DNA of 64,000 nucleotides from contig JAULBX010028049.1 of NCBI GenBank assembly GCA_032358255.1, positions 145,444-209,443 on the forward strand. The letters are read 5' to 3'. Positions 11,930 to 62,205 of this stretch are shown here, in pieces. Source of the DNA: Heterotrichella gracilis (taxonomy: Eukaryota > Sar > Xanthophyceae > Tribonematales > Xanthonemataceae). Numbering within the stretch: position 1 is the stretch's first letter; each line of letters starts with the position of its first letter. The notes beneath the pieces were generated by a model. It saw nothing but the letters and a program-made list of their open reading frames with translations. It did no database searches and was not told the DNA's origin. The position numbers and the translations under genes are program-made.

Positions 11930-14900
11930 CTAGGCACTAGGAGTTGTTTTCCGCCCCGTTGCCTTTTTCACGCGGCCAAACTTGTTCACCCCCAGCTTCT
12001 TCCTCGCCTTCTCCCCCTTGAGCTGCAGCATCTTGCGCTGCGCCCGCATGGACGGCATGCGGAACTCTTCCCCTGGCTTTGAAAGCACCTCCTTCTTTCT
12101 GGACTTCCTCTTGGGCGCATAGCTTTGCTTCACCTGCTGCGCATGCTGGGCGGCTGCCACGTCCATGAAGTCAACCACCCCCTCGCTTGTAACAGTACCA
12201 AAGCTGCCCACCTCCTTCACGGCCGCGCCCATCGCACCCCCCTTGGGCTTATCCCCCCCCGTCTTGTCTTTCCGATGCTCGCCCCCCTGCTTGCCAGTCT
12301 GAGACCCAGGCGCCTGAGCGGGCGCCGGTTGTTGTGGGGCGCGCTTGCCAGGCTGTGGTTCGGCATCGCCAGGGCTGGGCCGGGGCTTGAGTAGCTGCTT
12401 GGCTGGCGCTGCGCCGTCGCCGGCGGCCTGCGGCGGTTTCCGCTCGTGCCCCGCCTTTTGCTGCTTGTGCTTCTTCTTCTCTTTCCTGCGCGCGCACAGC
12501 AAAGAACACTTCATAAATGAGTAGTTTGTCAGCAGCTGCGGGGCATGCTGGCATCATGCAACAATCACATGGTGCCTTGCCTTGTCCGCACAGGCTGCAG
12601 CACAGCGCCATGCCATGTGGACTGCATGCACCACAGCCATCACACCGCGCACCAGCATGTGAGCTGTGTGCGCCACAGCTCTGGCCTAAGGCTTGTGCAT
12701 GCACCACACCATGCAGCAGCACCGTGCCGCAGGCATACGTACATAATGTTGCATGGGTTTAGGGAGGAGGGCAATGCCATTTCTCTTCCCATGATGCCCT
12801 ATTGCGCCAGGCCCTGTCCAATTTGGCAGTCATGGACATGTAATTTAAAATAATAAAACACGCAATTAACGCAAGTAATCTCTGAGGATCAATCCCGCAA
12901 TAAAGTAGCAGTTTCTTGTCAAAAAGAAAGCATTTCACTTACTTTTGCTTCTTCCTCGCCACCTCCAGCACCGCCTGCTGCTCCCTCAACCGCTGAGGTG
13001 GCGCCACCGCAGTCAGGCAGGTGAGGCGCGCTGACGTGGAGGCGCTGCACAGCTCGCTGCAAGACTCCCTGCAAGAGGTGTTCAAATTCAAAATCAACCA
13101 TCACGAAAGCATAAACAGTCAGTGGGACACTGTGTGGCATCCCGACAGGCTCCTTGTGGCACATCATTGATACCCCATACACACATTACATCCAACCTCA
13201 CAGCATCGCCAGCCATTCTTACACCCTGCGTCCCCAAAAGCTTGGACCACCCACCATCCATCCCCCAGCCGCACATACAATGACGCTCCTCAGTGACAAC
13301 TACAAGAAGGGCAGCCCATCCTGCGCCGACTTCCCACCCCGCCACCCACCTGCCATCTGCCCGCCGCACATCCCAGGTCTTGATGACCCCGTCAGAGGAG
13401 CATGAGGCAATGAGGTGGGCCCCGCTGCTGCCTGGCAATGCCCCGCAGGTGGTCACGCCACGCACGCGGTTGGCATGGGCACCCACCACTGTGGCGGCGG
13501 GATGGGCGGGGGCGCGGGTGTCCCACAGCCTCAGGGCACCATCGTCGCAGCCTGCGGGTGGGGCAAGGGGAGGGGGGTAATGGGGGATGAGAAGGGGGAC
13601 GGGATGCCCAATACGGGTCGGTTGGGCGATGGGATGCACATAGATGACAGCGACAAACCCTGCACTTGGAGCTGCACACCCCTACCTGTGATGATGGAGG
13701 TGGGCCTGCAGACAAACCCTATCCCTGCAGTGTAGAAAAAACCCTACCAAACCCTTACAGAACCCTCGCACGCCCCACCTGTGATGATGGAGTTGGGCCC
13801 ATCCACCGCCGCGCACAGCACCGGGCGCTGGTGCTCCATCACCGCCGTCGTGATTCCCTCCCCTCCCAGGTCGTGCACAGTCACCTTGCTGCCAGCCGCC
13901 ATCATGTAGGCCTGGGTCCCTGGGAGGAAGGCGATGATGTCTGCGTTAAAGGTGAGGGCCAGCGAGAAGCTGCTGCGCCCCTTGACCATGTTCCACATGC
14001 GCAGGGTCTTGTCCCTGCGGGTTGTAGGGTTTTAGGGTCAGGACTTGGGGTTTTTGAGGGTATCCAGGGCAGCCAGAAGCTGCTGCGGCCCTTGGACATG
14101 TCCCACATGCGCCCATGTCGGCACACGCAACCACATGCAAGCATATGGTCCCACATGCACCCGCATGCCCTCATGTACCATCATGCACCCACATGCATCC
14201 GCTCATGCGCCCGAAACCCCCTGTGCCTCACCTTGCCGCTGTCAGCGCCAGCCTGCCCGTCTCATGCATGGCAATGCTGTCCACCACGCCCCTGTGGCCG
14301 TACATGGTCTTCAGACAGTCCCAGGAGCCGCCGGCCTGCGGGGCAAAAGGGGTGCGCTGTGGGCGGGAAAGAAATTGCAGCATTGCAAAATAAATTGTTT
14401 CAAGATGTCCTCAGATCCAAAGAGGGTGTGAAATGCATTCCCAGATAAACAGCCTGACCCTAGGTTACAATTGCGCTTACATACATGTCTCAAGTGGGAG
14501 GCATGCACCCACCGTGGCCACACGCCATGCAACCCTACCCTTCTGTAACCCTTAACCCTGAACCGTCCCCGCTGATCCTCGGCTCTCAGCTCCCACACAC
14601 ACACCACTTCGTCCGCACGGTGACGGTGATGGCACTACTCCTGGCGCTCTTGAACAAAACCCAGATCCCTGGCACTGCGGCAGACCTTTAACCCTAATTC
14701 TTAAACCCTGCATCCTAATTCATTGCGCCTTCCACCCTCACCTCCCACCCCGCACACCACCCCGTCCGCCGTGCCACTGAGCAAAAGGCTGGCCGCCACC
14801 CTGCACCCTCCGGGCACATCTGCAGCGCGGTGATGGCACCGTCGCTGGAGCTTGTAACCCCCCCCAGATCCCTGGCATATTAGCAGACCCTATACCCTAA

Positions 14901-16071
14901 TTCCCAAACCCTGAGCTCCAATTCCCAGACCCTAAGCCTTCCATCCTCACCTCCCACACACACACCACCCCGTCCGCCGCGCCACTGAGCAGGTGGCTGG
15001 GCGCCACCGCACCCTGTGGGGTGAACATCTGCAGCGCCGTGATGGCCCCGTCGCTGGGGCTCATCAGAAACCCTAGGTCCTTTGCGTCGTGCACGTTGTA
15101 CAGGTGGATGAGGTCATCTGCACCCCCTGAGGCCACAAAGGGCCCGCCTGAGGTGATGCACTTGACGGTGCTCTGGGGGAAAGGTGGAGAGGGTCTATGG
15201 GTGAGGGAAAGCGAGCAAGGCATGGTGACCATCATCTTCTTGTTTTGCACATAGCTGAAAAATGATATATTTTCATGTTGTACGATGGTTTTTTCCAACA
15301 AATCATGTCTGGTCAGGGGCCACAAATGGCCCGCCTGAGGCGATGCACTTGACTGTGCTCTGGGGAGGGGGTCAGGGGGTTGAGGGTTCTGTGTGGTGGT
15401 CAGGTGGTGTCGGCTGCTAGGGTTGGGAGGATGGGAGCTCTGGGTGCGGTGGTAATATTAAACATACAGATTGACTGGAAGGCGTGCACAATGCATCTGT
15501 GGGCGGGTGCAACTCCTTGGGGGTGGGTGCGCATGTGTGAACCCTCCTAGGGTCTACGGTTGCGTACCTTGTGTGCTGGGTAGGTGAAGCCCCGCTCCAG
15601 TGAAAAACCCTGCAGCACCGATCACCAGTCAGGGATGTACTCACGCGCAGTGCAAACTGCCCTCTGGAATAGGGTGCGATATAAAAGGACTGCGTGTATA
15701 TGCAGCGCCCCTGCTCACTCACGGATGCGGCACTAGTACTTGGGAGCAGGTGGGTAGTGGCACGGGGCTGTTGCCTCACTATGAGTTCTCATAAAGGCCA
15801 CCAACGTCGATCAGTGGACCATCAATGGAGCATGTTGTTGACACTACATGGCCCTGTACCCTAAGGTCACTGCTGCACCTTGTTTGGAGGCATGCACATG
15901 GCGGTGCAAACGCAGTTAACAGGCAAGCGTGCAACAAACCACTTGCAAACAAAGCATAACTTATGCGTGCGCATGATAGTCACAGCAGCGCCCCACCTGC
16001 TCCCCTTCGCCAGCCTCCAAGTCGAACCCGAACAGGAACCTCTCATAGGAGCCAGCCACCAGCGTCGCCAT
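11930..16071 (-). CDS. PAK1IP1: PAK1IP1/MAK11-family WD40 ribosome-biogenesis factor
   Basis: Eight exons, all phase-consistent: 16071-15997, 15609-15568, 15172-14951, 14335-14232, 14014-13779, 13551-13350, 13068-12943 and 12485-11930, giving 520 residues. It starts MATLVAGSYERFLFGF, matching the family opening, and runs through WD repeats that follow PAK1IP1 in order: ASGGADDLIHLYN, LSGAADGVVCVWE, LTAARDKTLRMWNMVKGRS, ASCSSDGVIKTWD and ARLTCLTAVAP. The last exon (about 185 codons) is Lys/Arg-rich with several nuclear or nucleolar signal-like clusters, as in the family but longer. Yeast Mak11 and PAK1IP1 act in 60S subunit assembly, recruiting Rlp24 in yeast. The ATG at 16071 is fixed by the match to the family N-terminus. 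Introns of this gene carry degenerate copies of its own exon edges (see repeats). Confidence 0.93.
13683..14115. repeat. Exon-edge echoes flanking PAK1IP1 exon 5
   Basis: On the 3' side of exon 13779-14014, bases 13683-13712 repeat the exon end and donor at 13774-13802 (shared cctgtgatgatggag). On the 5' side, 14063-14115 repeat the exon edge 13957-14008 (shared agaagctgctgcg; ccacatgcgc). Both copies are degenerate and lie in introns. Confidence 0.7.
14573..15063. repeat. Triplicated block covering the donor edge of PAK1IP1 exon 3
   Basis: Three diverged tandem units start at about 14573, 14735 and 14944. The rightmost is the end of the real exon with its donor. The middle copy repeats cactgagca, catctgcagcgc and gatggc, then an intron tail containing cagatccctggca. 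The left copy repeats the donor edge (ctcccacacacacaccac) and the same tail. A further echo of the acceptor edge (15131-15179) lies at 15318-15367. The copies no longer read through in frame. Confidence 0.8.
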
Positions 16072-16955
16072 CGCGGGATCGAACCCTCGTCCTCCGAGCA
16101 GCAACTCAAGTGCTAGCACTCACTAATTATTACCAGATTATTGCCAGCAGCGTAAAGGCGGAAAGAGCTCGCCCAGGTCGTTGACTAGATGGAGCGTATG
16201 CATGCATGCATTCTCGGTGTGCATGCATATGTTCAAATTGGGGTCTAACAGCGGCAACCAAGGAGGCGACACTATGTCGAGCTGAACAGTGGCACACGCC
16301 TGTCGACTGCCCGCTTTCGTAGGCGTCGAGCTTTGGAGGCACAACCCTGGTTTGCGAGGCCGCCACATCAGGGGGGATACTCGTAAAGTATCGCTGATAC
16401 ACTAGGGTTTTTCTAGGGTTTTAGGGCTTACGAGAGAAAGACAGGGGATATTCAAAAAAAAAAAAAAGGTAAAGCCCTACGCGAGACGCGTAATTTTGGG
16501 GACGAACCCGAGGAGATATTCACAAAGGCTTACAACGCTGATCAGGCCTTGAGGCCCGAAACTTCACTACAGCAAAAATACTTCTGACAAATGCTGCAAT
16601 GCATGCAATGTTCCTCTTCAAGTCTCGCACCCCTGTGCCTAAGGGTTCTAGGGCTGTTTCCTGCCTGACACCTTTAGCACCCAGCAACAGCCAATCAGAC
16701 CACCTGCAGGACCAGACCTGCAACCCAGCGGGTTGGCCATTCGCCAACTGGAAATGCAGCGCCCTGCCAGACCCACACAACGCAACATCTGCATATCCCA
16801 TTTGATACGCAAACCCACCCGCGCACCCAACAGTCGGCTCAAGACTGCACTCTGCGAGATGCAGGACTGACTGAGGCGTATGTCTGCGCCTGTGGATATA
16901 TCCTGCACACATCCTGCATGGCTTGCTGGCAGATGATGGATCCCACTACCCCTTG
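16072..16955. other. Spacer between two minus-strand genes, with echo of ARMC9 3' end
   Basis: No gene seen. Bases 16731-16826 are a degraded copy of 16961-17049, the terminal coding exon of the ARMC9 gene (shared tggccattcgcc and gcagcgccctgccag). There is an A-rich run at 16454-16467 and a telomere-like tagggtttttctagggtttt stretch at about 16404-16428. Confidence 0.55.
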
Positions 16956-19900
16956 TCAATACTGCAGCGCCCTGCCAGGCCCGCCCGGTGCAAACTCTGC
17001 ACTCCCATTGGCCGACCCATACCCCCCCGCGTGGCCATTCGCCGCTGGGTAGTCATGGAGGGAGGTGGAGGAGGCGGAGTGGGTGGAGAGGCCCCGCCTG
17101 TGGCTGGTGCTGGCTGCTGAGGGGGAGTAACGCGAGGGGGGAAAGGGGTGGGGATCTGAGGGGCTGGGGGGGACAGGGCTGGTGGTGGCTGTGGCCAGGA
17201 ACCCACCCGCCAGCAGCTCCTCGCCTGCGGGCATGCCTGCACATGGGGGTTGGGGGGGTTGAGAAGGGGGGATGGGGCAGGACACCTGCAATTGCACTTA
17301 CTGTGACATGTACCCACGCTGTTCATTTGTTACCCCGAAGGAGAGACAATTACCAGGCTGTCAAGCCGACATGATGACGACAAGGGCCGTTAGAGTAAAT
17401 CGAAATATGAAGCATGGATCACTTTACTTTGTCACGTGAAATTACTGAGTAATAGGCATTGCCATGCACCTGGTGTCCACCCCTCAAGGCTGCACATCAC
17501 AAGAGCTCGGACACTCATACCCAATAGCTACCAAAATAGATGATGGAGTGCAAGCAAATGAACAGAATTTCTTCTTTATTTCTTCTGTACCTTGTGCCAG
17601 CTCGCCCAGCGCCTCTTCCTCCCCCTCCTCCATCTCGTAATAATCCTGGTCATACTCCTGGCCTGCAGTGCACAGGCCAAACAGCACGCTCAACATCCAA
17701 GCGGGCACAGGCTAAATAGGCATGGTCACCCTGCATGCGGTCACCAGTACACACAATAGGCCCTCACTCGACCCTTACAGCCCCCCTGCTCATTCCCTAA
17801 TGGAGCCCCATGCAACTCTAGGGCAAACCCTAACGGCACGTGAACCCCTGACCGCCACCTAGCAGCACAGACAGCCCTGCAGGGCAGCCTCAGGAGGATG
17901 ACCATGGCAGGGATGGACATAGGGATGGCCATGGCAGGGATGCACACAAAATTTGACCATGGCAGAGATGCACACAAGGATGCCCATGACCACCAGAATG
18001 CCCAAGACCAAGGATGCCCTGCACTCCCTCCGCCCACCAAATTACCCCCACCCCTCCACCACTCCCGCAGCCAAACCACCACTCACCTGCCTCCTCCTCC
18101 TCCTCCCCACCTGCCACCTCCCCCTCCGGCTGCTCCAGCGCATCCAGGGTGTACTGCAGCTGGCGGGAGAACACGGCGTCGCTGCGGCTGGCCACATCCC
18201 TCAGGTGCGCCACCATGCCCTGCTCTCGACACCGCTCCCTGTGGGGTAGGTGGGGAAAGGGGGGTTAGAACCATATCCTGGGCATGGGATGCTGGTCAAT
18301 GGTGGGGGAACGAGCCTTGGCCCCACAGTCAGTGGCGTCAGGGACGTGGCGGCGTGGGATGGGGAGTAGAAAATCACGCTCTTGCATGACCGGTGGCTGT
18401 GGGACCTTGTGGGAGGGTAGGAGCCATTCCACCAGCTACACCAACCAATACCACCACCCTGCTCCCCTCCCCATTGGAAACCAACCACTCCACCCCTCAC
18501 CTCATGACCTCATCTTTGGTGATCAGGAACAGGCAGCCATTCACATAGCTCCGCACGCGCATGCTGTCGCTCTCACACAGCCCCTTGAGCAGCGCCAGCA
18601 CCCCTTCGCCACAGGAGCGGCAGGCGGCCCGGCCAGGTGCGCGCATGAGGAGGTTCATGAGCAGGGCGCAGCCGTGCTCTACCTCACCCTCGGGTAGGGT
18701 TTCGGGGTCCTGCAGAACAGGGGTTGAAGTTTTGGGGTCTTGCAGGGCGGAAGTTGAAGGTTTTGGGTGTTGCAGGATTGGGGTTGGGATTTTTCTAGGG
18801 GTGGCGTATGACCCAATACTTGCATTTTGGCAGGTGCAAAGGTAGGACTATGCGCCGCCAGAATCTGCTTCAGCAGCACCTAGCCAGCCAAGGCAGTGAC
18901 CACACATGTGACCAAAACTACACCCACCTGCATCAGCTCCACCAGCCATGCCAGCGCGCCATGTGCCACCAGGCCACGCTGCGCCACCTGGCGGAAGCTC
19001 AGCTGGTGGAACGCAGCCAGCAGGTGGCGTCGCACAAGGGGGGGAACCGCAGCCGAACCAACGGGTAACGGGGAGGAACTGGAGGCTTCGGGCTGACCGG
19101 CGCCCAAGGACCGCCCCCCATTAGCCCCGTCCGGGTTTTCGGCCTCGCCATTTGCCATCTCCAAATCCCCACTGGATGGCCCCTCGTCCCCGTTTGCAGA
19201 CAGGATCGAACCTCTGCTATCCTGGGGGCCTCCGTCACCTCCCCCTGGATTTGAAATTTCCGCCGCGCGGTGCGTGGGGATGGGTTGGTCCTCGGGGTTT
19301 TGCCAGGCCTGCCTGTTTGCTGCCAGCTGCATGAGCAGGTCGATGGCATGCGCAGAGGGGTGGAGGAGGTAGCTCCTGCCCGAGGGGTCGCAAGAGATGG
19401 CATGGACCAGGCGCGCCAGCTCGGAGGTCACTGGAGTACTGCGTGCAACAAGGGTTGTTCAACTTGGTTGGCTGTGAGCAGGCCATTATTAAGCTGGCTC
19501 ACTGCATGGAAACAATGGCACCTGTTGGTTGGTTAGGAATCAAGTGGGAGGCGAGGCGTCCACTCACCTGTGCCAGGCACGCGCGCAATACACGAAACTC
19601 TACACCCTAAAACCCCAATCCCTGCTCGGGCATCCGTGCACCCACCCTACGTGCTGCGCCAGGCATGCGCGCATGACTGGGCTCCCGTCCCCCGCGCTTG
19701 AGCACTTGAGCACGTCCATGCGCACGTAGGTCATCAGCAGCGCGTGGCGGTCGGAGGGCAGCGGGCAGCGTGTGAGGCGGCAGCGCAGGGCGGCCAGGAG
19801 GGCGGCGGCGAGGGGGGAGTCGGGACCCTACGGGTGTGGGGGAAAGGGGTGGGAACAGTGTAGCCACACATAAGAAAAAGAAGGGAAAACAAAAAATGTG

Positions 19901-22900
19901 AAGTAAAAAATACATATTTCTTACACAATACCCTAGACGCTTGCTACATGCAGAGCAGCGGCTAGGGCAAAACGCTAGCTACACGCAAGCACTGCATAGA
20001 CTAATGCCATGCAAGCAGTGTGTTAAGTATTGGCAGTAAGCACTATGTAGGATGCCGCCACGCAGCACAGCCCCCTGGAGGGTGTGGGGTTCGTATTAGG
20101 GTATTTGCTAGGCACCTGGAGGGTTTTGACAATCTTGGAGTAGTTGAGCGGGGGCAGGGCAGGGCGGCCGCCTGGGGTGAGCAGTACAGTGGGCTGTGAA
20201 GGGGAGGGCGTGGCAGCTGAGGGGCCCAGGGGGGGCGATGGGGGCTTGATGGGCGTGACTGCACCAAGGAGGAGGGAGGGGTGTTGAGGTGCTGTGGGGA
20301 GAGGGGGAGCCCGGCGGTGTGGGTAATGGGGAGGTATGATGGGGGCGGGTGAGGGGCACCATCAAGCATTGCGGAAAGGGAGGCGCTGGGCTTAGGAGAC
20401 CCACCGGATGTGCATGTCTGCAAAATGCAACATGCGCAGGTGCATGCTCATGTGAATGGCTGGTTACGAACGAGCATGGGTCATCCAACACATGTGCTTG
20501 CTGATGGCTGGACCCAGGCCCGCACCCAAATTTTGTTATTATTTTGACTCTTTATATTCGATTTCTTAATTTCAATTCATGTTGCTGGACATGTGCATGT
20601 GCACCAGCGGCCCTGCATGTGCACAACCGGCCCTGCATGCGCATGGCCATGCGGATGGTTGCCACCAAAGGAGCATGCGCCACCATGTACATGGCTGCGT
20701 GGACCCTCATGACTGGACCCAGGCTGCACTCCAATGCCCACCTCCCAGCAACCCCACGCACTCCCCACTCAAGTGACCTCCGCACTGCCTATTTCACTGC
20801 ACCTTGCATGCGCCCCATACCCAAATCCCCACCCACCTGTCACACTGGGCTGGGGAGACAGCGGCACAGCCTCATCCCCAATGCCAGACACTGCCATTGG
20901 GGTGGTGTCAATCTCTTCCGACACGCCGACTGCATGCTCCATCGCCGGTGCTGCATTGCCGGTGCTGCACTGTTCCGCTGATGACTGGATTTCCGGGAGC
21001 GACCCCGATCCCCGGGAGCCAGGTCGGGCTTCGTCATCCCCGCTCCGCCCTAGGCATAGCATTAGGATGGGCGGTGAGCGGTAGGCAGCGAGTGTGGCTG
21101 GCGGGCGCTTGCCACACGAGATGATTCACCATATGCTATGCAACCAACCCCCCGAAACCACGCGCAAGGCGCATGATACATGTGCATAGACGGTCGTCGC
21201 TGGGGGATAAGATGCACAGCCTAGCACCGGGCTGTGGTGCATTCATAATTGAAACTGTCCCGATGCCAGGATGCTAAACCCGCATTGCAGTTTGCATCCA
21301 CCGCCGCACAAGAGAACTTGCGGGGGTGGGTGGTGGGTGGGTGCCAATGATAGCATGTGCATGTGCATGTGCATGTGCAAGAGTCCATGAACCGCCACTT
21401 GCATGTGCACCGCATGCGTACATGGATGTGCATGCACATGCATATATGTCTGCATGCATCATAAGCACATGCAGGCATGCATGCAGTGGCCGTGGACATA
21501 AGCAAGCGCCTCACCTGCCGCTGCATCCACATTGGCCCCTGAGACACTGGGGGAGGCACCTGCACCCAGGTGGCAGTGATCACATGATGCCGCACTTGCA
21601 TCACATTTGGTGCAAACAATGATGTTGTTCTGCAATGGACCTGGTGGCCTAGCCCAGGCATAGGTGATCAGCGCCAGATGAAGACTAATGCATGCAGGCT
21701 AGCTGATGGACCAATGATGTGTTAAATGCCAGTCACAAACAGCATAAAAAAGCAATCATTATTGCAAATTTGTCATTCAAAGGCACCAGGGCCGGTTCAA
21801 AGGACCCAAAAGGAGGCTGCATTGGTGGTACATATAAAGAAATTTAAAGCAAGCGCATATGCATACAATGCCCCTAGCATTGGGCATACATGCTTGTGTA
21901 CGCCACACCCGCCGTGCCACATCGCTTCGCCCCCTTGCATGCAACCGATGGCATTCCGGCTTGCTCCTCGCACCTTGCTTGTACGCTCCAATCAGCTTCC
22001 TGATGAGCGGCACCTCCTGCCTGCCGGGCACCTCCTGGAGCACCCCCTCAAGCTCCCCTTGCAGCTGCAGGGCCCACTGGGCGCTCACCTGCTGCCGGAA
22101 CTGGGGGTGGCTGCCGGGGTCGGTGACATAGGGCAGGGCAAAGTAGGGTAGCAAGCTGGTGTCTGCCGCGAATTTCTGCCCGTGGCTGTCCAGGAATGCC
22201 CGGAAGAGGCTGCGCGCGTGCGCTGCCTGCACTTGCTGGCCTGCGGGGGTGACGCATTGTATGATTTTGGTGAGTGGGTGCATGGAAGCAGCACCATCAA
22301 TGTCGCTGCATTTGTGTATGTAGTAATGGGTCAGTGTGAAATTTGCGCCCAGAAGAGGCTGCGCGCGAGCGATGCCTGCACTGCTGCCGGTGAATGATGC
22401 TATGAGCAATGCATGGTTAGATGAAGCACCAGCGCCGTGCCGCTCAACTTGCGTGGGTGACAGTGGGATCAGTGTGAACAGTCTTAACACCGCATGGGTA
22501 TGTATTGTTGTGGAGCCCCCAAGCTGGCTTTGTGGGGGTCCGTTCACCTTCCGAGGGCTTCAGATATGGGTAGAAGGTGAAGTACACATGCAGGAGGAAC
22601 TCGACCTGCATTGTAACAAAATTGGAATCAGAAGTCAAAAGCAACCCGAGACCTGGAACGAGGCCACACCTGCCTGGTCAGCGTTTTGTTATAGGCTGTG
22701 TACCTGCTTGGCATGCTCGTTCTTGTCGATCCACTCCACGTTGCAGTAGGCCCTCCAGGCAAACCAGAAGGTGTCTTGCCTGCCTTCTTGAAAAGCATTG
22801 ATCTGCAATGCACCACAGGGCAGGGCTCAAGGCTCTGTGCAAGATTCACAGTTTGACAGCTACAGCAGGGAAACACAGTTCACCTCTTACCAGTGAGTAG

Positions 22901-23149: not shown

Positions 23150-23590
23150 TGTAGCTGTGGTGTGCGCCTGGCAATAAGACATGGACCCATGCCTCCTCTG
23201 GGAACCGCCATCACCGGATAGTGGTCAGCAAGGTGTGCTTTCTTCAAACACACATTGGCATTGTACTTAATCACAAACACGTTTAAACACTCGACCATGG
23301 CACCGGTTTTGCTGCAAAGACTTTCAAATGCAGGGAGGCTGCTGACGTTAAAAATGGGGGGCTCATTCTAAATGGGGTGTTTTTCTTTGCCTGAACATTT
23401 CGCTGCGTTTAATTTGCGGCACCCTCTGAAAAAAGGGCCCCAACGCCACCGCTGACCGCCGCTCATCATCAGGCCGTCCGGGCTTCCTGCGAAGAAACAG
23501 TACTTGAAGAGTTGCGGCGCTACCCAGCATCCCTCTTTCCAGTCGCCCCTGTTGAAACCTTGTGCCCGCGGGTCAGCAGCAGAGGCAACG
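23150..23590. promoter_or_regulatory. Divergent promoter region, ARMC9 / eS21
   Basis: The start codons of ARMC9 (minus) and eS21 (plus) are only 441 bases apart and point away from each other, so both promoters must lie here or overlap. I see no clear TATA box. Confidence 0.5.
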
Positions 23591-41542: not shown

Positions 41543-43031
41543 TCATCCTTTTGCTGCGTTGCACAGCCACTCCATCACCAGCTCCCGCTCCTCCCTCGCC
41601 TCGCGCACCAAATCAGCACCTGGCGGAGTGTCCTCGGGGGGCGCTCCCTTGCGCGGTTTCATGCTCACCCCACGATCACCGTCTGAATCCACGCCCATAC
41701 TGTACATGGCATGCCGCCCCTTGATGCTGACCACATCCAACTGCGACCACAATCCTGGAGTATCGTCAACTTCCCAGAGACCCCAACCACGTGATGTAGG
41801 TTTTTCAGGTACATTACCGGACCAATCCGCCAGGCGAGGTTGGGGTTGATGGGCACCTGCAGCTGCACGCCGTGCGCATTGCTCACCTGCAGCCGCGTGA
41901 GGCTGGGTAAGACCGGGAGCATCACTGGCCCCGCCACGGAGGAGACGTCCAGTTCCACCAGGTTGGCGAGGCTGGTGAGGTCATGGAGCCAGAGTTCCTT
42001 CTCCATCGTGCTGATGCTCAGCTTCTGGAGGTTGGTTAGGCTGGCCAGGGCAGGGGCCACATGCCCAACATTGCGACCGTCCAAGGCGAGGGATGTCAGG
42101 TGGACGAGGTCGGGGAGGAGCGCCCTGGCATCGACAAACATGTCGGAATCCATGCAGTAGATGGCCAGCGATCGTAGTGACGTGGGGAAGCAGGTGAACA
42201 GTTTTGCTCCTCTGCTGCGCTCCATACTGATGCTCTCCAGCTGCGTGAGCTGCCGCAACGAGATGCCAACGCTTGCTCCAGTGAACAGGTCTCCTTCTGC
42301 CAGCTCCAGCCTTGTCAGCGCAGGCTGGTTGGCTAGCAGTGGGACATAGTCCGCCCCGTTCACCCATAGCTTTACTTGGGAAAGCTTGGGCAAGCACGGG
42401 AGCTCTGGCCACCAGCCTGAGGGCTGGATCCTGGGCTGTGTACTGACGTTGACATCCAGCTCGAGCTGCTCCAGCTTGACCAGTGCTGCCATGGCTGGCA
42501 TGCAGTGCGCCGCCTGCTCCGGGGTGCAGTGCAGGCACAGGTGCAAAGAGCGTAGGGAGGTGAGGCGGAAGGTGGCCTCAAGCAGCTGCCCAACACAGGC
42601 CCCGTGATAAGCACGCACCAAGGGATCGGTATTGCCAAAATACTCTTTCTCATTGGTGAGAGAAGTAAGGCAAGATGGGTTGAGGGAGTTGAGCACTTGC
42701 CTCTGGATTGCCTTGAGTAAACTTTATTGACCTGGTCGCTGCAAGCCTGGGGCACACCCAATCCAGAAACTGTTTGCCCCAGCTGAACTGACACACCATG
42801 TCTGCCCATGCCTCACCCGCCAGGGCCTGGCGCCAGCACTTGCACACCAGCAGCAGCTTTGCTCTGTGTTGCTGCTTGTCTGCTTGATACTTGCAGGCTC
42901 GCAAGGGTACTTTCTTGACGATGCGCTGGAGCAAGGTCGTCTGGGAGGGAGTGTAGGGGGCACCCATCGCACTGCTGGTCTAGCACCGCAGTGCTGCTGC
43001 TGCTGGCTAAGGCGCCTGCTGACTGGTCCAT
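41543..43031 (-). pseudogene. F-box/LRR-like gene copy A, frameshifted
   Basis: The gene reads from the ATG at 43031 in four successive frames. An F-box-like start (CPLHSLPDDL) breaks at about 42938 by one extra base and resumes as LLQRIVKKVPLR. It breaks again at about 42695 by loss of 8 bases relative to copy B, then reads about 290 leucine-rich residues (LTRLELAEGDL; LTSLRSLHL; LASLTNLQKLS). One base is missing at about 41825, and the last 60 residues lie in another frame. F-box/LRR proteins select substrates for SCF ubiquitin ligases. At least three lesions make this copy almost certainly non-functional unless the assembly has errors. Confidence 0.82.
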
Positions 43032-44213
43032 AACGAGCTGGGTGCTAGAAGTCTGCGTGGCAGAGCAGGAGACAGTGGGAGGCTAAGGAGGCAGGAAGGC
43101 AATAATAGACAGCAGAAAGTTGGTACCTTGGCTACAAGGTGTGCAGGAGCTGAAATTCGGCAACATCCAGTAGACGCAAAACACAAAGGGTGCTTTAACC
43201 TGGTTCAGAATTGTCGCAAACAACAAATATGGGTTTCAATCGACCCAGAAACTGAACATAGTTCACTTGGATATGATTAATAGACTCCTTTGCAGTGTAG
43301 TGCGTGCAACACTGTTGGAAGACCGCTTCCAACTAAGTTCCACTGCTGCCCGTTTCTAAGGCTTGACGGTACGCCTGCCAAGTTGCAAGCACGCGCTTGG
43401 GCGTTCAATGGGTCCAAGTTGCATGCACTGGTCCAACCCACCTGACGTGGTGCCCGACAGTTGTTTGGCCGCTGCAGCTTATTGTTTCGGTGGCTGAAGG
43501 AGAGAAGGTAGAAGCGTGACGGTGACTTTTGGAAGTGCGTTCACAACAGACGAAGCAAAATAGGGTGAAACCCAGAGGATGCATGCATACAGGAAACCAA
43601 CGCCGTTGGACTTCAAAAGTAAAATAATATGTGGTTTCAACAAAAAAAGTATAATTTTTTCCACCCATTATTTTGCTTTATTTACGTTGACAACCAATAA
43701 CTTCTGAAATATTTCAGTGCTTGGTGGACACATGGGTACCCTATGATTGAACTGAATGGTTAAACACTGAATGATTCCATTTAATGCAACTGTTACACCA
43801 CCAGGCAGGCCCCACAGGGCATGCTGTTTTAAATTACGTATTGGATACGCACTGCGTACTGGTTACTACTACCACAACCAGCCTGATGTGATGGCGACAG
43901 TGACAGTCATATTATGTTATTAACCAACAGCCCCACCCGTCACCATACTGCCACGCACAACCAATGTCACACTGGTTGTTCAATGGCAACAGCAGTTCAC
44001 ATCCTTTGTCACAATGCAAAATGGCAGGGTGATACTGTTGCGGTATGCAGCTCTAACCCATTGAGGGTGCTATCAATTGTATCTGATACTGCCAGTGGAG
44101 CACCAAAATACTGATAAGTAAAATGCAAGAAAATGCCCTATCAAATGGCTGACCCCTTGGATGTACTTTGCATGCACATGAATAAATCATGTTTGTGTCC
44201 CAGTGAAAAGCTC

Positions 44214-45682
44214 TCACCATTTTGCCGCACTGTACAGCCAATCCATCACCTGCTCCCGCTCCTCCCTCGCCTTGCGCACCAAATCAGCACCTGCCAGAGT
44301 GTCCTCGGGGAGCGCTGCCTTGCGCGGTCTCATGCTCACCGCATAACCCCCGTCTGAATCCACGCCCATGCTGTACATGGCGTGCCGCCCCTTGATGCTG
44401 ACCACGTCCAACTGCGACCACAGGCCTTGTATGCTACGGTCCTCCCAGGTAGGCGCCTCTGGTACCTTGCCGTGCCAATCTATCAGGCGCAGGTCGGGGT
44501 TGATGGGCAGCTGCAGCTCCAAGCCGTGCGCGTCGCTCACCCTGAGCAGCGAGAGGCTGGGCAAGGCCGGGAGCACCACTGGCCCTGAAAGGGAGGAGAC
44601 CTCCAATTCCTCCAGGTTGGCGAGGCTGGTGAGGTCAGCAAGCCAGAGTTCCTCCTCCACCCTGCCGATGCTCAGCTCCTGGAGGTTGGTGAGGCTGGCT
44701 AGGGCAGGGGCCACATCCACAATGCCGTGACTCTGTAGGACCAGTGATGTCAGGTGGATGAGGTCTGGGAGGAGAGCCATGGCATCCACATACATGTCCG
44801 GTTCCGAGCAGTAGATGGCAAGCGATCGTAGTGACGTGGGGAAGCAGATGGACAGTTCTTCTCCCTTGTCACACTCCATACTGATGCTCTCCAGCTGCGT
44901 GAGCTGCCCCAAGGAGATGCAATCGCTCCCTCCCGTGTACAGGTCTCCGTCTGTCAGTTCCAGCCTGGTCAGTGCAGGCTGGTTGGCTAGCAGTGGGACG
45001 TAGTCCGCCCCGTTCACCCACAGCTTTGCTTGGGAAAGCTTGGGCAAGCACGGGAGCTCTGGCCACCAGGGCTGGACCTTGGGCTGGGTCCTGGAATGGC
45101 GACCAGGGCTGGGTCCTGGACTGTTGACGTCAAGCTGGAGCTCCTCCAGCTTGACCAGTGCTGCCATGGCTGGCATGCAGTGCGCCACGTGCAGCGCAGG
45201 CTCAGGTGCAGGGAGCGCAGGGAGGTGAAGCGGAAGGTGGCCTCAACCAGCTGCCCAACGCAGGCCCCGTGATACGCATGCCCCAAGGGATCAGTAGTGC
45301 CAAAAAACCCTTGCTCGTTGGTGAGAGAAATGAGGCAAGATGGGTTGAGGGAGTTGAGCACTGGAAGCTTGTCCTCTGGATTGCCTTGAGAAAACGTTAT
45401 TGACCTGGTCGCTGCAAGCCTGGGGCACACCCAGTCCAGGAACTGTTTGCCCCAGCTGAACTGACACACCATGTCTGCCCATGCCTCACCCGCCAGGGCC
45501 CGGCGCCAGCGCTTGCACACCAGCTGCAGCTTTGCTCTGTATTGCTGCTTGTCTGATTGATGCTGATAGGCTCGCAAGGGTACTTTCTTTATGATGCGCT
45601 GCAGTAGGTCGTCTGGGAGGGAGTGTATGGGGCACCCATCGCAGTGCTGATCCAGCACCGCAGTGCTGCTGCTGCTGGTCAT
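44214..45682 (-). pseudogene. F-box/LRR-like gene copy B, one frameshift
   Basis: Starting at the ATG at 45682, it reads an F-box (CPIHSLPDDLLQRIIKKVPL, then LQLVCKRWRRAL). Near 45190 a 10-base deletion relative to copy A (TGCACGTGGCGCAC in place of the longer copy A segment) shifts the frame. The rest, to the stop at 44214, is intact over 320 residues of leucine-rich repeats (LTRLELTDGDLYTGG; LTSLVLQSHGIVDVAPALA; LTNLQELSIGRVEEELW). The upstream ATG used by copy A is lost here through a one-base deletion, so the start differs. The lesions of A and B are at different places, so each decayed on its own. A split gene with two products is the less likely alternative. Confidence 0.8.
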
Positions 45683-46270: not shown

Positions 46271-47418
46271 ATGCATGCAATTTATATATTTCTTCGACAT
46301 TAAAACTTTAGTGTAATTATAAAATTAGTTTGACAAGTTTTACAACTAATTGATGCCTGGCCAACTGTTTGTCCGCTCGGTGGACAGCCACCTTGCACCT
46401 CTGGTGTCTGCCACTCAGGTCGTAAGCCTCTAGTGACCCTTCTCAACCCCACGGTTAACCATTTAAATCGCCTTATGCGCTACGATCCCCATCGCAATCA
46501 GGCTGAGAAGGCTGCCCAAGCACAGCTTCAAATTTTGTGCTTCAAACTTTCAAAGCTTGTCCACACGCGTACTACTAGGCCTAAATTGCGCCAGAGAGGT
46601 GACTACTATTTGCTTCAATGTCAGTACTGCTGCAGAAAACAGTCACATAGTATTACTCTGTATAGACGGGAGACCAAGACCAGGTATCACGACCATACCC
46701 CCTAACGGTATTATAGCAGTGACATTTAAATCCCATTGACAACAATGAATGTTGTCCCATTTTGAAAGCAGACACAGCTGATCTGATCTGTTAGACGCAC
46801 AGGAGCACAGAATAGCCCAAGACTGCTCGCGTGGGGGACCACTGCAAAACTCCCCCAAAACTCAAACAAAACGCTCTTCCTTGAGTCACTAGATACATCA
46901 CAGCCGGGGCTACAAACGCTCTGAATGTGCACAATGCAGATAGGCATGCAAATTGTTAAGGCATACCACCCGGCACATGCTGTCGGTGAATGTTGCCCGC
47001 TGTGAGGGAGTGCACATTCCATGCTACAGAACCTGGGATTCGTAACCAACAACTTGTGTCTCAGGGCCGTGTGCATCCTACATCACTTGGGCTGATGTCA
47101 ATGTGATATGGCAAAAATGGGGAATTGGCCTGCAGCTGCTGAGGCCATGCCGGGGCGCCGCACCCCCGGCAATCTTGCTGGCTCCCACCCGTGCGCAGCC
47201 CCGCAGGCTGATCAGACCACGCTTGTTGGATCATGCCGATCGGACCATCCTGGCGCAGCGATCGACCCCATGTTGATGAGGTTGCGCTAGCTGTCCACCC
47301 ATAGAAGCTTCAATACTGGCAGCCCTGCTTGCCCCTGCCCGTGCGCATGGGGCCAGGCCATGCGCAGCACTGCGCTGCTACATGATCACCCCCCGCTGCT
47401 GCAGACAATCCCGCAGTG
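46271..47418. other. Intergenic; no supported gene
   Basis: Right of the F-box duplication. AT-richer than its surroundings up to about 46350. Open frames are short and without domains. Confidence 0.4.
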
Positions 47419-49558
47419 CTATAGGAACATCCTGGCTGCTGTGCTGATGAGGTTGCGGTAGTTGTTCACCCACCGCACGGTGGCGTTGGAGAAGCGCGGG
47501 TAGAAGTAGCTGTACTCGTTCAGCCGCACCTCCCAGCCCTTGACCGCGTAAACGATGTTGATCCCGCCAAAGTAGGAGGCCATGACGGAGTTTCCCCCTT
47601 GCACGCTGATGAACCTGTCGCAGTTGGCGTGCAGCATGAGCTGCAGCCGGTTGTAGCTGTAGGTGCGCTTGTACTGGTCATACAGGTCGTTGAACAGGAT
47701 GACCCCCGTGTAGCGCTTGAGCAGGGCATACTCATTCAGGTCCTTGTAAATGTCCATTTCGTCGCTGAACCCCGACACGCTCTGCCCGCCCACGTGCCGG
47801 ATGTACACGATGGTGTAGCGCCCCCGCAGTATCTTCACCAGGCGCTTGAGGGTGGGCTTGTTGATGAAGTTGACGGGCTCGTCGTCCCACTCCACGTTGT
47901 ACTTGTTGTGGATGATGAGCAGCGGCTTCTCAAACTTGAGCACGTCGTTCTGGTACACCAGCTTGTAGGGCGGGGGCACCCACTCCTTGAAGTTGAAGTC
48001 AAGCGTGTGCACCTGGCAGTGGGACAATTCATTCAGTTCATTTACATTGATTAATTGAGTAGTAACATGCATCCTACTCCTTGAAGGTGCAAGGCAAGCG
48101 CTTGCACTTGCGGTGGGACATTCCATCAAATGAATTATATTAGCATTTAATTAGTGGCATGCAACCCATTTACATGGGGGCTGGCACTCATTAGCAGGTT
48201 GGCAAAGGCTAAGAATGGATTGCATGTGGCTGGTGGATGCATCCCAGCAGGCCAGTCATGAGCAGTCAGCATTGCACATGCAGCGCCAAACAGTCCACTT
48301 CACAACCATTTGCACGACCTACGGTCGCGTTAGGTCAAGTCATCCCATGTGGCCCAGGGCATACCTTGGGGTGCGTGTGGCCACCATACAAGCACACATG
48401 GCGCTGCCCAATCTCGATGTGCTCCCGAGCAAAGAAGTAGAGCGGCCGTGTGCCCACTGAGCTGACCGTCTTCTTCAAATGCCCATTGAGAAACATGTAG
48501 TACAGGTAGGGTATATGTATTTGGAGCTCGTAGCCAAACTCCCCATAGTACGCTGCGTGAAAGTCGATTTTCTTGCCCGCGGGCTGGAAGCAGTAGCACC
48601 AGCACTGCAGCTCGGCGGCGCACTCGCCTGCAGGGAATACAAACCCATATGTCATGCAGGAGGAATCATGCATTGCATATAAAAGTGATGACATGCGAGC
48701 AAATGCAAAAGCAATAGGCACTAGGCCTATCTGGAGCATGTTGTTGGTGTAGCACGGCAAGACATAGTAGTAGTGGTTGTGTGGTCAGCTGAATGCGCCA
48801 GCCCCATGCTTCACCGCTGTTGCCCACGCACCTTCAAGCCCCCAGTCATAGCACTGCTTTGAGAGCTCGCCTTGCATCGACATCTGCTGCCCAACTGCAA
48901 TCTTGTTGAACTCCTGCACCAGGGACATTGCGGGCCCTGGAGCCGCCGCCACCGCTGGAGCCGTGCCATCCCTGTTCCCCTCTGTGGCTCCCTGGCTGGC
49001 CTTGATGCCCTCTCGCTGTAGCAGCTTCACCAGACCCTTGGGCTTGGAGGTCAGTGGTTCGCTCTGCTTGGCGCTGAGCGGCTCACCCAAGACCGCAGGG
49101 CACCGCCAATGCAGTGAGAGGACCTGGGAGGAGGTGTGGCACGGGGTGAACGTCGCGCCACACCACGCCGTGGTGGCTATTTGTTCACTAAAGGTGGGCA
49201 CACGCCATGCATTTCTGTGTCGCACAAGCTGCTTCCAAGTGCCAGCCCCATATACACCTAAGCCCAGATCCAACCTTAATAGTGCACCTGGTTGTCAGTG
49301 TAAACAGGCAGAGCATACCTGGTATGCTGGCATAGAGAGCTAGGGGATACTGGGGATGTTGTTGACGCACAAACGTCCAAAATGCCGTAAGTGCTGCCAT
49401 AATTGGCACAAGCTGTGCAAGGATGACTTTTAATCCAACTGTACTGCCGCATGCACATAACTAGATGCATACCAGGCATAGTTGCACCGTTGCCAGAAGT
49501 TGCTTCGGTTGAAGTTGGAACAGACGTAGGGAGCTGCGCTTATGCTCCATAGAGCATA
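47419..49558 (-). CDS. Glycosyltransferase-like protein, 5' end unresolved (partial)
   Basis: Four exons joined in phase: 49558-49473, 49187-48832, 48627-48365 and 48012-47419. The 3' two-thirds is well defined: AAYYGEFGYELQIHIPYLYY, LKKTVSSVGTRPLYFFAREH, VQGGNSVMASYFGGINIVYA and VKGWEVRLNEYSYFYPRF. This arrangement, with a conserved GEFGYEL start and a GGNSVMAS block near the end, resembles nucleotide-sugar glycosyltransferases such as DUF563/GT61-like proteins, but I cannot fix the family. The 5' part is Cys-rich (NFNRSNFWQRCNYA) and suggests a lumenal or secreted location. I found no convincing start codon exon, so at least one 5' exon with the likely membrane anchor lies to the right. The acceptor at 49187 is inferred from phase. 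The stop codon is at 47419-47421. Confidence 0.62.
48076..48124. repeat. Echo of the glycosyltransferase-like last-exon acceptor edge
   Basis: Bases 48076-48124 copy 47982-48029 across the exon edge and acceptor. Shared stretches are actccttgaag, gcaagcg/tcaagcg, tgcacctg/tgcacttg and gtgggaca. The copy lies in the adjacent intron. Confidence 0.8.
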
Positions 49559-57100: not shown

Positions 57101-57815
57101 CCCGCGCTGTCAAGTGGCAGTGGGAGCGGCTGGGATAGGACAGGTATGGCCCCACAGGCAAGTGTGGGGCCGCTGCAGCAGGGAGCGCAGGCGCTGGGCA
57201 GCTCGCCGCGCTCGCAGGTGTGTGGGCAAGTGTTTTGCCGTGCATGGTTGTTAGTAATGCGTATGGAGCATTACATCCTCTGTCCATGTCAATCTGTGCA
57301 TGCGGCTCGCACCATACCCATTGCGCCACAGATCAAGCCCACTGGGCCATGCTGTCACATGCATGCGGCTCACATTGCATGCACTGTCCCGTGCTGTCAT
57401 GAGCATGTAGCTTCACATCCCCCACTGTCCCATGCAAGACTTTGGCACCCCTTGCCACCTCGAGCCGCCCTGGTACAGGGCCAGGTGAAAAATGAAAACA
57501 ACACAACTAAAAATTAGCCTATGTGGCCCCCTTTTGTCCCACAGCTCACTGGAAAATAAGACTGAGACCCATTTACTGCCACATGGTCTTTGCTCAGAAC
57601 AAGATTTCGTAATGACCACATGTTATTCCATGCAGGACTCGGGCAGCCCCGGCAGCGCGCAGTCTGGCCGCCCCGCCTGGGGCACGTCCCTGGGCGAGCG
57701 CTGGCGCAGCACCCGTGAGCAGCTCAAGGAGCACAGCAGCCGCCTGTCCACGCAGCTGAAGAGCAACATGGAGGCGCGCAAGCGGGATCGGGGCGCGCAA
57801 CACAAGCAGGAGTAG
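51124..57815 (+). CDS. TEX2-like SMP-domain lipid-transfer protein
   Basis: Thirteen phase-consistent exons: 51124-51176, 51326-51446, 51656-52201, 52481-52672, 53070-53250, 53398-53562, 53842-54293, 54453-54612, 54847-55165, 55435-55570, 55783-55978, 56259-57217 and 57636-57815, giving 1219 residues. Residues 18-58 are a strongly hydrophobic hairpin or pair of membrane helices (VLLFFLVYVLPLFLVGS). A PH-like region with YGETDFLMFAW lies at about 60-300. The SMP domain runs from about 542 to 825: EYGINMLLARVAFDAIRN, VKVLDIDLGPNFPTIANLRA, LFLEAKLELR and RLPLRLNVHVHSLRGTMYVW, interrupted by a 60-residue low-complexity insert. SMP proteins such as TEX2 and Nvj2 sit in the ER and move lipids at membrane contact sites. 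The C-terminal 380 residues are Gly/Pro/Ser-rich. The start codon is uncertain; an upstream exon may exist. Confidence 0.87.
52794..52839. repeat. 18-bp intronic tandem repeat
   Basis: The unit gagggtcacagtcactac occurs about two and a half times in the intron after exon 4 of the SMP gene. Confidence 0.85.
53615..53740. repeat. Minisatellite of about 54 bp in an SMP-gene intron
   Basis: Roughly two and a half units contain gcagcatgt, gcctgcatg and ggtgtagggtccgactgg. They follow the exon 6 donor. Confidence 0.7.
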
Positions 57816-58887
57816 GAAGGACTGAGGGTTTTTGGGGGGATAGGTGTGCTAGGAGTAAGGTAGAGGTAGGCGCGGACCCCAGGCTTAAGTGGCGTTTCCA
57901 GCCGAGCTCTGGAGTAGTTTGCTTGAAGGGCAATATGGAGGGGTGTCAGCGGGAATGGGGCGCGCAGCACAAGCAGGAGTGATGGGTGCTAGGCTGAGGC
58001 CCTCAGTGAGGTTGCAGGAGTGAGGAGGGCTCTTGAGTAGCCCTCTTGAGTGAGGAGGGTCTCAAGAGTAGCTGAACAGGACTGATCAGTAGGCTTAGTT
58101 TGGGTGGTATGCAATGCGGACTGGCACATACATGTATATGTAGCAAGATAACAGTAGCGCTTCGAGAAATGTGCGAGAATCATGGTATCTTTTTGGCAAG
58201 TGAGTTATGCCGACGTGCGGCACCCCCAGCTGGTCATTCAGGGTGCTGTGCACCACTTTTTGTGTGCAAAATAGACGCGGTGTCCCATTGCAGAGCCGTT
58301 TGTGCGTTTCTAGCGAGGTTTTCAAAGTTCTTGGGCTTGTGGGGAACACTATGCAATACCCTATACTAGGGTTGTTGCACCAACACGGTTAGCAAGTGTG
58401 CTACGGTACCAACATTTTGTGGCCGTGACGTGTCACCATCTGTCAGATCAATGCACATATTTTGGCTTGACAGTCTTGCCTGTCAATAACCGAAACAATA
58501 TTATGGAAATCATGATGGAAAATAAGCCAGCCTCCAAGGTTTCACCTGTGTTCAGTTGACAATAATTTGATCCCCTGGATAAAGGATAAGGTGCAAACTT
58601 TTCACTGTGGGTGTTTATAGACATCGCCTGGGCGCTGGTACTTGATTCTTCTTGCAGCACGTAGTCCGGTGTAAGGACTCGTCAGCTTAGTCGTGAGCAT
58701 GCCGCGTAGTTGACTGCGCTGTTCATACATCAGACCACCCTCCACTGCCGCCTTATCCATCAACAAACTTGCAACCCATCAACCTGCGGGCTCCTCCTCT
58801 GAACGTATTGTAGCCCTGAGTTTGGGATCGTTACACTAGCTATTGTATAAGAGCTATACGTTGGCAGTGGCTGAGGCCCGGTTCACT
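57816..58887. other. Spacer with echo of the SMP gene 3' end
   Basis: Bases 57905-57985 copy the last coding bases 57745-57830: aagagcaacatggagg versus aagggcaatatggagg, then gcgggat(c/g)ggggcgcgcaacacaagcaggag. The copy includes a stop after the same Lys-Gln-Glu ending. Further short direct repeats (gtgaggagggctcttgagtag) lie at 58019-58075. No gene seen in the rest. Confidence 0.6.
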
Positions 58888-61800: not shown

Positions 61801-61939
61801 CGCCGACGAGGTGCCCCAGTCATTCACCGACATGCTGCCCGACTGGGTGGGGTACGGGTTCCTGTACTTCATATCGGTGCTGCCCGCAATCATCGCTGGA
61901 TCAGTGGTGCTCATCCTGTTCCTCAACAGCCTCAAATAG
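58888..61939 (+). CDS. Putative plastid-targeted membrane protein, green-lineage type
   Basis: Seven phase-consistent exons: 58888-59024, 59256-59359, 59711-59865, 60137-60280, 60911-60982, 61302-61398 and 61716-61939, giving 310 residues. The first 45 residues are rich in Ala, Ser, Gln and Arg with almost no acidic residues, like a chloroplast transit peptide (MAQLSIQASLPQQ). The middle contains a soluble helical domain: EVKLVIAIEDPRAREQRQQM, SGVSRDEIALALNDVIEGRI and ALRELHREMTNWPFLDKE. The C-terminus is one hydrophobic span (GYGFLYFISVLPAIIAGSVVL), ending LFLNSLK. I recall similar uncharacterised plastid proteins in land plants, but this is not verified and I give no function. The third-exon acceptor (gcatcag at 59704-59710) lacks a good pyrimidine tract and was chosen by phase. 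Confidence 0.75.
61185..61320. repeat. Repeated acceptor edge before exon 6 of the plastid protein
   Basis: Three copies of a ccaggaccgca / ccaggactgcat segment occur at about 61191, 61226 and 61299. Only the last continues into the conserved reading frame. The copies resemble the exon-edge echoes in other genes. Confidence 0.65.
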
Positions 61940-62205
61940 GGGATGTGCTGGATCGAGTTGGATCAGGTTGGATTGGGTTGGATCAGATTGGATGAGGTTT
62001 GAGGTGGAATGGGCTCGGCTGGGCTGCAGCTTGCGGTCAGAAGTCATGATGATCGTGGGGTGGGTGTTGCTAATCCTGTTCCTCAATAGCTTCAAGCAGG
62101 GAGGGGGTGGATGGCACGGGGGGTTTGGTTGAATTGATTGGCCTGTATTGGATAGGTGGCGCTTATCCTGTTTCCTCACAGCCTTGACTAATGAGGGGGG
62201 ACGAG
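61905..62205. repeat. Two 3' echoes of the plastid protein's last exon
   Basis: The end of the coding exon (61905-61945, tcatcctgttcctcaacagc) is repeated, diverged, at 62068-62110 and 62160-62205 (taatcctgttcctcaatagc; ttatcctgtttcctcacagc). The coding frame is broken in the copies. Confidence 0.8.

Follow-up and report, generated by a model that had tools for sequence, protein, structure and literature searches.

Why do introns and 3' flanks carry degraded copies of the exon edges beside them? The question is raised by a 64,000-nucleotide stretch of DNA from Heterotrichella gracilis (GenBank assembly GCA_032358255.1, contig JAULBX010028049.1, positions 145,444 to 209,443), hereafter the window, which forms the end of a contig (C553) in a draft assembly of 68.5 Mb in 903 contigs. 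A preliminary description had noted about twenty such copies, here called echoes, and had attributed them to local tandem duplication across exon junctions, which was proposed as a main source of intron length. We find that the echoes are real and that the telomere repeat of this genome often lies between the copies. Many echoes are probably one half of a target-site duplication, produced when staggered breaks were repaired by insertion of telomere repeats and fill-in of the overhangs. We give this reading a probability of roughly 0.7, a value held down by the small share of 21 duplications around perfect telomere tracts that abut the tract on both sides.

Exon-edge echoes in adjacent non-coding DNA

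The main sample consisted of 314 kb, namely the window and 25 other loci of the same genome (L001 to L025). Gene models were generated using a splice-aware hidden Markov gene finder that was self-trained on these 314 kb and converged on 483 exons and 419 introns, with a median intron of 298 bp and the splice consensus CAG|GTG at donors and TGCAG|G at acceptors. Exon edges throughout are predictions of these models, made without RNA support. For each edge, the 60 coding bases at that end of the exon were aligned to the adjacent non-coding flank with a score threshold of 32, and reverse-complemented flanks and the flanks of other exons served as controls. Same-orientation copies were present at 67 of 786 edges, as compared with 0/786 for reversed flanks and 1/15,375 for foreign flanks. 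Matching own against foreign flanks was the test by which the preliminary description could have failed, and the echoes withstood it in this sample. They occur at donors (35/349), at acceptors (25/355) and past stop codons (7/45), as had been described, and at 0 of 37 starts. Since the window alone has echoes at 14/165 edges and the remaining loci at 53/621, the window is not special. A more sensitive listing, which has no control of its own, gives the window 22 echoes, distributed over 21 edges and near the number first counted. Offsets between exon and echo are bimodal, with most at about 80-140 and 155-215 bp, inside the range of 50-300 bases originally given; the second mode may represent two units or a nucleosome-scale length. 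Echo frequency is uneven among loci (chi-square 56 on 24 degrees of freedom). At a score of 28, no echoes were seen in L011-L013, L017-L019 and L023, and 8 of 28 edges carried one in L008.

Alignment of the DNA to itself gave the same picture. Self-BLAST of the window returned 20 direct pairs, of which one has an offset of 2-5 kb and the other 19 have offsets of 50-400 bp, and a single inverted pair with arms more than 10 kb apart. In 26 ten-kilobase chunks (20 other loci and 60 kb of the window), direct pairs numbered 78 at offsets of 50-400 bp and 12 at 600-10,000 bp, and inverted pairs were absent at every distance. The duplication effect is local and same-oriented. When the 119 direct BLAST pairs at 30-600 bp in the 314 kb were classed using the gene models, 81 joined an exon to non-coding DNA, 16 joined non-coding DNA to non-coding DNA, 21 touched coding sequence with both arms, and one was borderline. 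The exon boundary lies inside the exon arm in 66 of the 81 exon-to-non-coding pairs, which bears out the earlier remark that echoes normally include the splice site.

The copies are 67-97% identical, with independent substitutions. Mismatches between exon and echo fall on codon positions 1, 2 and 3 in 125/1,160, 105/1,165 and 230/1,152 cases (10.8, 9.0 and 20.0%), and of the 22 gaps that fall in exon sequence within the alignments, all but one shift the frame. From this codon-position pattern and the frame-shifting gaps it follows that the echoes drift neutrally opposite a conserved exon; selection of the echoes as coding DNA was considered and rejected on the same two grounds. In pairs that are wholly coding on both arms, the offset is divisible by 3 in 5/5 cases, and thus duplications also reach into exons, where selection filters them.

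Local duplication across junctions is therefore upheld from the preliminary description; its tandem character is not, for most copies. Contiguous tandem duplication is expected to leave homology as long as the offset, and this was found in a minority of pairs only, with a median copy length of 0.47 of the offset. Among the 24 exon-intron pairs with at least 88% identity, 87.5% cover less than 0.6 of the offset, as compared with 2-59% in simulated contiguous duplications of uniform age. Because homology usually spans about half of the offset or less, most copies are not contiguous duplications; as a rule, unrelated sequence lies between the two. Homology beyond the aligned part had a median z of 0.4, with z above 2 in 12 of 59 cases.

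Telomere repeats between the copies

Arrays of TTTAGGG begin contigs C70 and C140, which identifies this motif as the telomere repeat. An unbiased 7-mer screen of 84 introns with echoes against 315 others ranked the rotations of AAACCCT, seven in all, above every other word. Echo introns contain one or more AACCCTA sites in 48/84 cases and other introns in 76/315 (p=2e-8). The signal is concentrated between exon and echo: telomere 7-mers cover 1,058 of 8,647 spacer bp (12.2%), as against 3.4% of the rest of the echo introns, 1.8% of other introns, 0.9% of intergenic DNA and 0.2% of coding DNA (0.23%). Distance-matched edges without an echo have a density of 2.3%. Of the 83 edges with a single echo, 31 have a tract in the spacer alone and 5 have one beyond the echo alone; 14 have tracts in both places and 33 have none. 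With a tolerant score of 24, a telomere signal was detected in 42/94 nearest-echo spacers and 144/1,878 controls; at a score of 20 these counts were 50/94 and 226/1,878. The density of AAACCCTA, counted on both strands, is 1,213 per Mb in introns and 327 per Mb in intergenic DNA. As a separate observation, the commonest 7-mer in the first 26 chunks was GCATGCA, which is depleted in echo introns (34 in 34.7 kb vs 241 in 113.9 kb), opposite to the telomere motif.

The association was recovered when tracts, instead of exon edges, were taken as the starting point. With masking, direct repeats flank 63 of 145 intronic tracts and 136 of 2,175 distance-matched sites, and reverse-complement repeats flank 1/145. 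Tracts whose flanks are wholly non-coding have direct repeats in 10/30 cases, compared with 7/262 control sites. Across the genome there are 211 overlapping matches to four perfect units and none to the reversed pattern. A second set was assembled from 45 perfect tracts of at least 26 bp outside the 314 kb, taken in list order and excluding the telomeric sites on C70 and C140 and the sites listed later; 5 came from an initial group of six loci, in which L048 duplicates L047, and 40 from a further list. All but one of the 45 are 1 kb or more away from any contig end, the exception being L056 at about 140 bp. Direct repeats flank 21/45 of these tracts at scores of both 28 and 32. Reversed flanks gave 0/45, and mismatched flank pairs gave 11/1,980 at a score of 28 and 2/1,980 at 32. 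The flanking duplications are 18-106 bp long (median 32). Three are perfect and leave no more than 2 bp between tract and copy on either side (L058, 19 bp; L081, 32 bp; L090, 18 bp, each 100%). Others are near the tract, such as those in L069 (40 bp, 97%, gaps 0/6), L049 (45 bp, 93%, gaps 7/0) and L061 (28 bp, 96%, gaps 0/18). The events span young to old, and many contain additional filler.

Intronic tracts crowd the exon edges, with 73/145 lying within 30 bp of one, where 27.4 would be expected had they been placed uniformly within these introns. Introns without detected echoes show this crowding as well (66 tracts, mean percentile 0.31, standard error 0.037, 0.5 expected). In the second set, 24 of 45 tracts fall in predicted introns, 14 of these within 30 bp of a predicted edge (a count that has no control), and 21 are intergenic or unassigned, including those of L049, L058, L069 and L081; most of these loci are only about 520 bp long and their gene models are weak. 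On the coding strand 102 intronic tracts are C-rich and 43 G-rich, with 59 vs 16 near acceptors and 43 vs 27 near donors. Removal of harmful TTTAG|G false acceptors would yield such a C-rich bias.

Introns with an echo have a median of 365 bp (n=85) and those without one of 275 bp (n=335), and subtraction of the offset reduces the former to 228 bp; longer introns also offer more room for an echo match. Detected offsets amount to 12,779 of 150,011 intron bp (8.5%), a floor, as copies fade. Echo introns are thus longer, although the proposal that duplication is a main source of intron length goes beyond what these figures demonstrate.

Proposed mechanism and alternative explanations

The following course of events would account for these structures. 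A staggered DNA break, often at or near an exon-intron junction, would leave single-strand overhangs of about 20-100 bases that cover the exon tail, the splice site and some of the intron. TTTAGGG repeats would be added to a broken end, both overhangs would be filled in and the ends joined, giving S - telomere repeats - S', in which S and S' are the two copies of the overhang. One S would be kept in the mRNA by selection, and S', dispensable inside the intron, would decay neutrally along with the tract; repeated events could build up several copies. We infer that telomerase adds the repeats and that fill-in and end joining close the break. The enzyme's gene is present, its RNA-binding domain (PF12009) being encoded in two exon pieces on C626, and its activity is predicted. 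Candidate causes of edge-biased breaks are G-rich intron ends, nucleosome edges at exons, and transcription.

Simulations of such insertions (copy 25-150 bp, insert 20-150 bp) fit the identity, length and exon share of the pairs at an age T of 0.1-0.15, where they predict a ratio of exon-intron to non-coding pairs of 0.4-1.0 (0.45-0.8 with BLAST and masking), as against 81:16 observed. The ratio rises up to 2.4 at T 0.15-0.2 (BLAST and masking) and to 2.8-5.0 at T 0.2-0.3, where median identity drops to 78-81% (observed 83%) and homology becomes shorter than observed. By itself, detection bias explains the excess of exon-edge pairs poorly, although it might conceivably suffice. The excess of tracts at exon edges is independent evidence for an edge preference.

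Several observations weigh against an origin in telomere-patched breaks. At 33 of the 83 single-echo edges neither the spacer nor the next 90 bp contains a telomere 7-mer, about half of the spacers are without a telomere signal even under tolerant scoring, and within the window a telomere 7-mer lies in the spacer at just 9 of 21 echo edges. Such spacers may have decayed, may hold other filler, or may stem from fill-in in which telomerase took no part. At the threshold used, 24 of the 45 perfect tracts have no flanking duplication. Only 3 of the 21 duplications come within 5 bp of the tract on both sides. For the left side the number is 9 and for the right side 8, and several duplications are 40-130 bp away, so that additional filler has to be postulated. 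Among the three cleanest cases, L058 and L081 fall outside predicted introns, in short loci with weak models. Intergenic tracts showed no excess of flanking repeats (1/20 vs 4/200), in a run whose masking was flawed. The arrays at L005 6234-6484 and L024 7541-7813 repeat copy and tract jointly, as later tandem duplication would. The match of perfect-tract flanks to the telomere phase (2.53/8 before and 2.69/8 after, with about 2.0 expected) shows no bias to the priming side, and no common sequence that might represent flanks derived from telomerase RNA stood out in the 94 spacers. Finally, insertion is read here from one genome, in which the transition from empty to filled site is not seen directly.

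The echoes could instead be plain local tandem duplications across junctions, made by slippage or by fill-in of staggered breaks without an insert, of which the exon edge alone stays visible. This fits neutral drift, in that aligned intron parts diverge by 18.8% and second codon positions by about 9%, and the wholly coding pairs with offsets divisible by 3; contiguous cases do exist (e.g. L008 2409-2609 and L007 4703-4988). In simulation, contiguous duplications of uniform age give a pair ratio of only 0.7-1.0 and homology that is too long, and this version was rejected. A single old burst approaches both the ratio (4.7 at T=0.15, indel 0.5) and the lengths; it places 63% of exon arms wholly inside exons, where 18.5% are observed, and requires one old age for all events, which the perfect 18-32 bp duplications around tracts contradict and make unnecessary. 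As the telomere repeats between copies would also be left unexplained, we regard plain tandem duplication as unlikely. Alternatively, pre-existing fragile telomere-like tracts might drive duplication through replication stalling or through crossing-over between two tracts. Interstitial telomeric sequences are reported to be breakage-prone (PMC11626172), an array in which copy and tract are repeated extends over L005 6142-6484, and echo frequency follows telomere-motif density among 31 chunks (rho 0.61). That correlation is not unique to the motif, as a rho of up to 0.65 (95th percentile 0.39) was reached by 60 motifs with permuted letters, some of which may be rotations of the repeat. Crossing-over predicts tracts outside the copies, whereas spacer-only tracts outnumber tracts beyond the echo by 31 to 5, and coding DNA, from which one copy starts, is nearly devoid of telomere 7-mers. 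Fragile tracts are thus a decidedly improbable cause.

Retention for splicing is very unlikely as an explanation. On this view CCCTAAA would serve near acceptors as a branch-point-like, pyrimidine-rich element, and echoes as decoys; the position of tracts near exon edges and their C-rich orientation would suit such a role. The echoes nevertheless drift neutrally with frame-shifting gaps, flanking duplications require a mutational cause in any case, and the orientation bias would also be expected from loss of false acceptors. A transposable element or introner with telomere-like ends, duplicating its target at each insertion, would supply the flanking duplications, and introners are reported to create introns in many eukaryotes (PMC9860276). 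It is hard to reconcile with the absence of a shared element, since no non-telomeric 9-mer is shared by more than 6 of 94 spacers (a count that has no control) and the commonest ones look like variants of the telomere repeat or runs of CCACC, and with the variable length of the duplications. Nor is there a sign of intron birth by duplication, as none of 75 echoes abuts the far intron end and the closest stops 42 bp short of it. We consider an element highly improbable. The draft state of the assembly and the self-made gene models invite the suspicion of an assembly or alignment artefact, to which we assign almost no weight, given the independent substitutions between copies, the lack of an inverted counterpart and the occurrence of echoes on many contigs.

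If echoes do arise from telomere-patched breaks, the scars of such repair are a likely way for introns to lengthen. Whether breaks at exon-intron junctions healed in this manner continually drive the growth of introns in this alga is more doubtful, and we offer the idea tentatively: each event would add about 60-200 bp and leave a spare splice site, and tract orientation would then be filtered by splicing. Should the idea be true, it would give a concrete answer to the unusually long introns of some green algae; it is a testable candidate, in a genome whose telomere repeat is of the type that a published source calls ancestral to that group. The scars would also form a datable record, in which the exon serves as a conserved reference for reading the age of each one, and the spare (predicted) splice sites beside the real ones would be raw material for alternative splicing.

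Echoes and other features of the window

Gene names PAK1IP1, RLT and SMP are those of the preliminary description. Six window proteins were scanned against Pfam, of which five match families (histone, WD40, ARMC9, cyclin N-terminal domain and ribosomal S21e); no Pfam family matched the glycosyltransferase-like protein. In PAK1IP1 (minus strand), an echo at 14067-14112 copies the exon arm 13957-14002 (87%, offset 110), and a telomere-like tract at 14025-14038 lies in the spacer between the exon (13779-14014) and this acceptor-side echo. A longer decayed copy at 14624-14852 matches 14828-15061, comprising the 3' part of an exon, its donor and intron (76%, offset 204); a further decayed copy of the exon's 3' end (14946-14977) is found at 14585-14616 (offset 361), and two telomere-like 8-mers (14690-14697 and 14702-14709) lie between PAK1IP1 copies. 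The acceptor edge 15131-15178 of the exon at 14951-15172 is echoed at 15318-15365 (94%, offset 187) across a spacer without a telomere 7-mer. The gene finder also placed small exons at 13686-13724 and 14742-14819 within introns of PAK1IP1; both are probably decayed echoes that it misread, an error that annotation pipelines may also make elsewhere.

Four further minus-strand echoes have spacers free of telomere 7-mers. Two belong to ARMC9, one past the stop codon at 16755-16823 (copy of 16963-17031, offset 208) and one of the acceptor edge 22198-22238 at 22347-22386 (90%, offset 148). The others are an echo that follows the stop codon of the glycosyltransferase-like gene, at 47271-47301 (copy of 47442-47472, offset 171) and one of the acceptor edge 47979-48024 at 48073-48118 (83%, offset 94).

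On the plus strand, in the RLT-like gene, the tract ACCCTAAACCCTAA at 32493-32506 separates the exon 32322-32459 from an echo of its donor edge (32436-32471) at 32511-32546 (86%, offset 75) that starts 4 bp past the tract. Acceptor edge 33294-33330 is echoed at 33169-33206 (81%, offset 125), with three telomere-like 7-mers in the spacer (within 33220-33287). Behind the exon at 34303-34475, a telomere-like tract at 34490-34499 occupies the spacer before the echo of donor edge 34455-34481 at 34515-34541 (96%, offset 60). The echo of acceptor edge 36024-36107 at 35866-35946 (87%, offset 158) is followed after 3 bp by the tract CTAAACCCTAAA (35950-35961), and that of acceptor edge 37649-37699 at 37551-37601 (92%, offset 98) has no telomere 7-mer in its spacer. 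In the SMP-like gene, the donor edge 57757-57813 is echoed at 57924-57980 (84%, offset 167) with one telomere 7-mer between the copies (57825-57831). Past its stop codon lie an echo of 61904-61941 at 62064-62101 (plus strand, 84%, offset 160, spacer without a telomere 7-mer) and a second echo at 62149-62184.

Apart from echoes, the window encodes on the minus strand an intron-less predicted gene (1918-2346) whose product matches the core histone fold (Pfam Histone, 2.3e-41), diverges in its N-terminal tail and looks to us like a centromeric H3 (CENP-A), and a predicted leucine-rich gene (41543-45167) whose translation shows, by eye, two similar halves. The contig tip (63924-64000) is a run of about 77 bases, nearly all G, that is absent at the tips of 21 other contig ends compared. 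The genome as a whole is photosynthetic, with 43 light-harvesting matches; taken on their own, these matches and the TTTAGGG telomeres would suggest a green alga.

Comparison with known systems

The nearest parallel is offered by the short interstitial telomeric sequences of mammals, in which telomere repeats are inserted at breaks and direct duplication of the target is one outcome (PMC2246262, PMC7215372). The tracts described here share several marks of that class, namely an internal copy of the genome's own telomere repeat, a flanking target duplication and an encoded telomerase domain (activity predicted). In mammals, direct duplication accompanies a minority of insertions, judged against empty sites (6/130 rodent and 4/25 primate loci, PMC2246262; 3/66 horse loci, PMC7215372), and location in introns, at 31% of human loci, is seemingly random (PMC2246262, PMC7215372). 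In this alga, by contrast, direct repeats flank 63/145 intronic and 21/45 perfect tracts, and tracts crowd exon edges.

Mammalian cells also form small tandem duplications when staggered ends are filled in by polymerase alpha-primase guided by CST, a complex known from telomeres (PMC8355091). Duplication of the overhang is common to both systems, whereas the relevant part of that report describes no telomere insert and in this alga the copies often have a tract between them. In a potato RdRp gene, a tandem duplication spans an intron-exon boundary including the splice signals, as here; a new intron arose in potato (PMC4974935), while in this alga no echo reaches the far intron end and existing introns grow. 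Introner-driven intron gain likewise shows DNA insertion shaping introns (PMC9860276), but we saw neither a common element nor intron birth.

Plant telo boxes are interstitial telomere motifs in genes, for which spread by telomerase acting on free 3' ends has been proposed; they are single units, densest in 5' untranslated regions, and reach 150.7 per Mb in the introns of Arabidopsis and 72 per Mb in those of rice (PMC3022908). The density of AAACCCTA in introns of this alga is 1,213 per Mb, counted on both strands (strand counting in that paper may differ), and flanking duplications are often present. Among the titles and abstract openings of the open-licence literature searched, none described introns gaining length through telomere inserts that are accompanied by duplicated exon edges. 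Telomere insertion at breaks is known from mammals, and what sets this alga apart is that such insertion appears to be frequent, placed at splice junctions, accompanied by duplicated targets and linked to longer introns.

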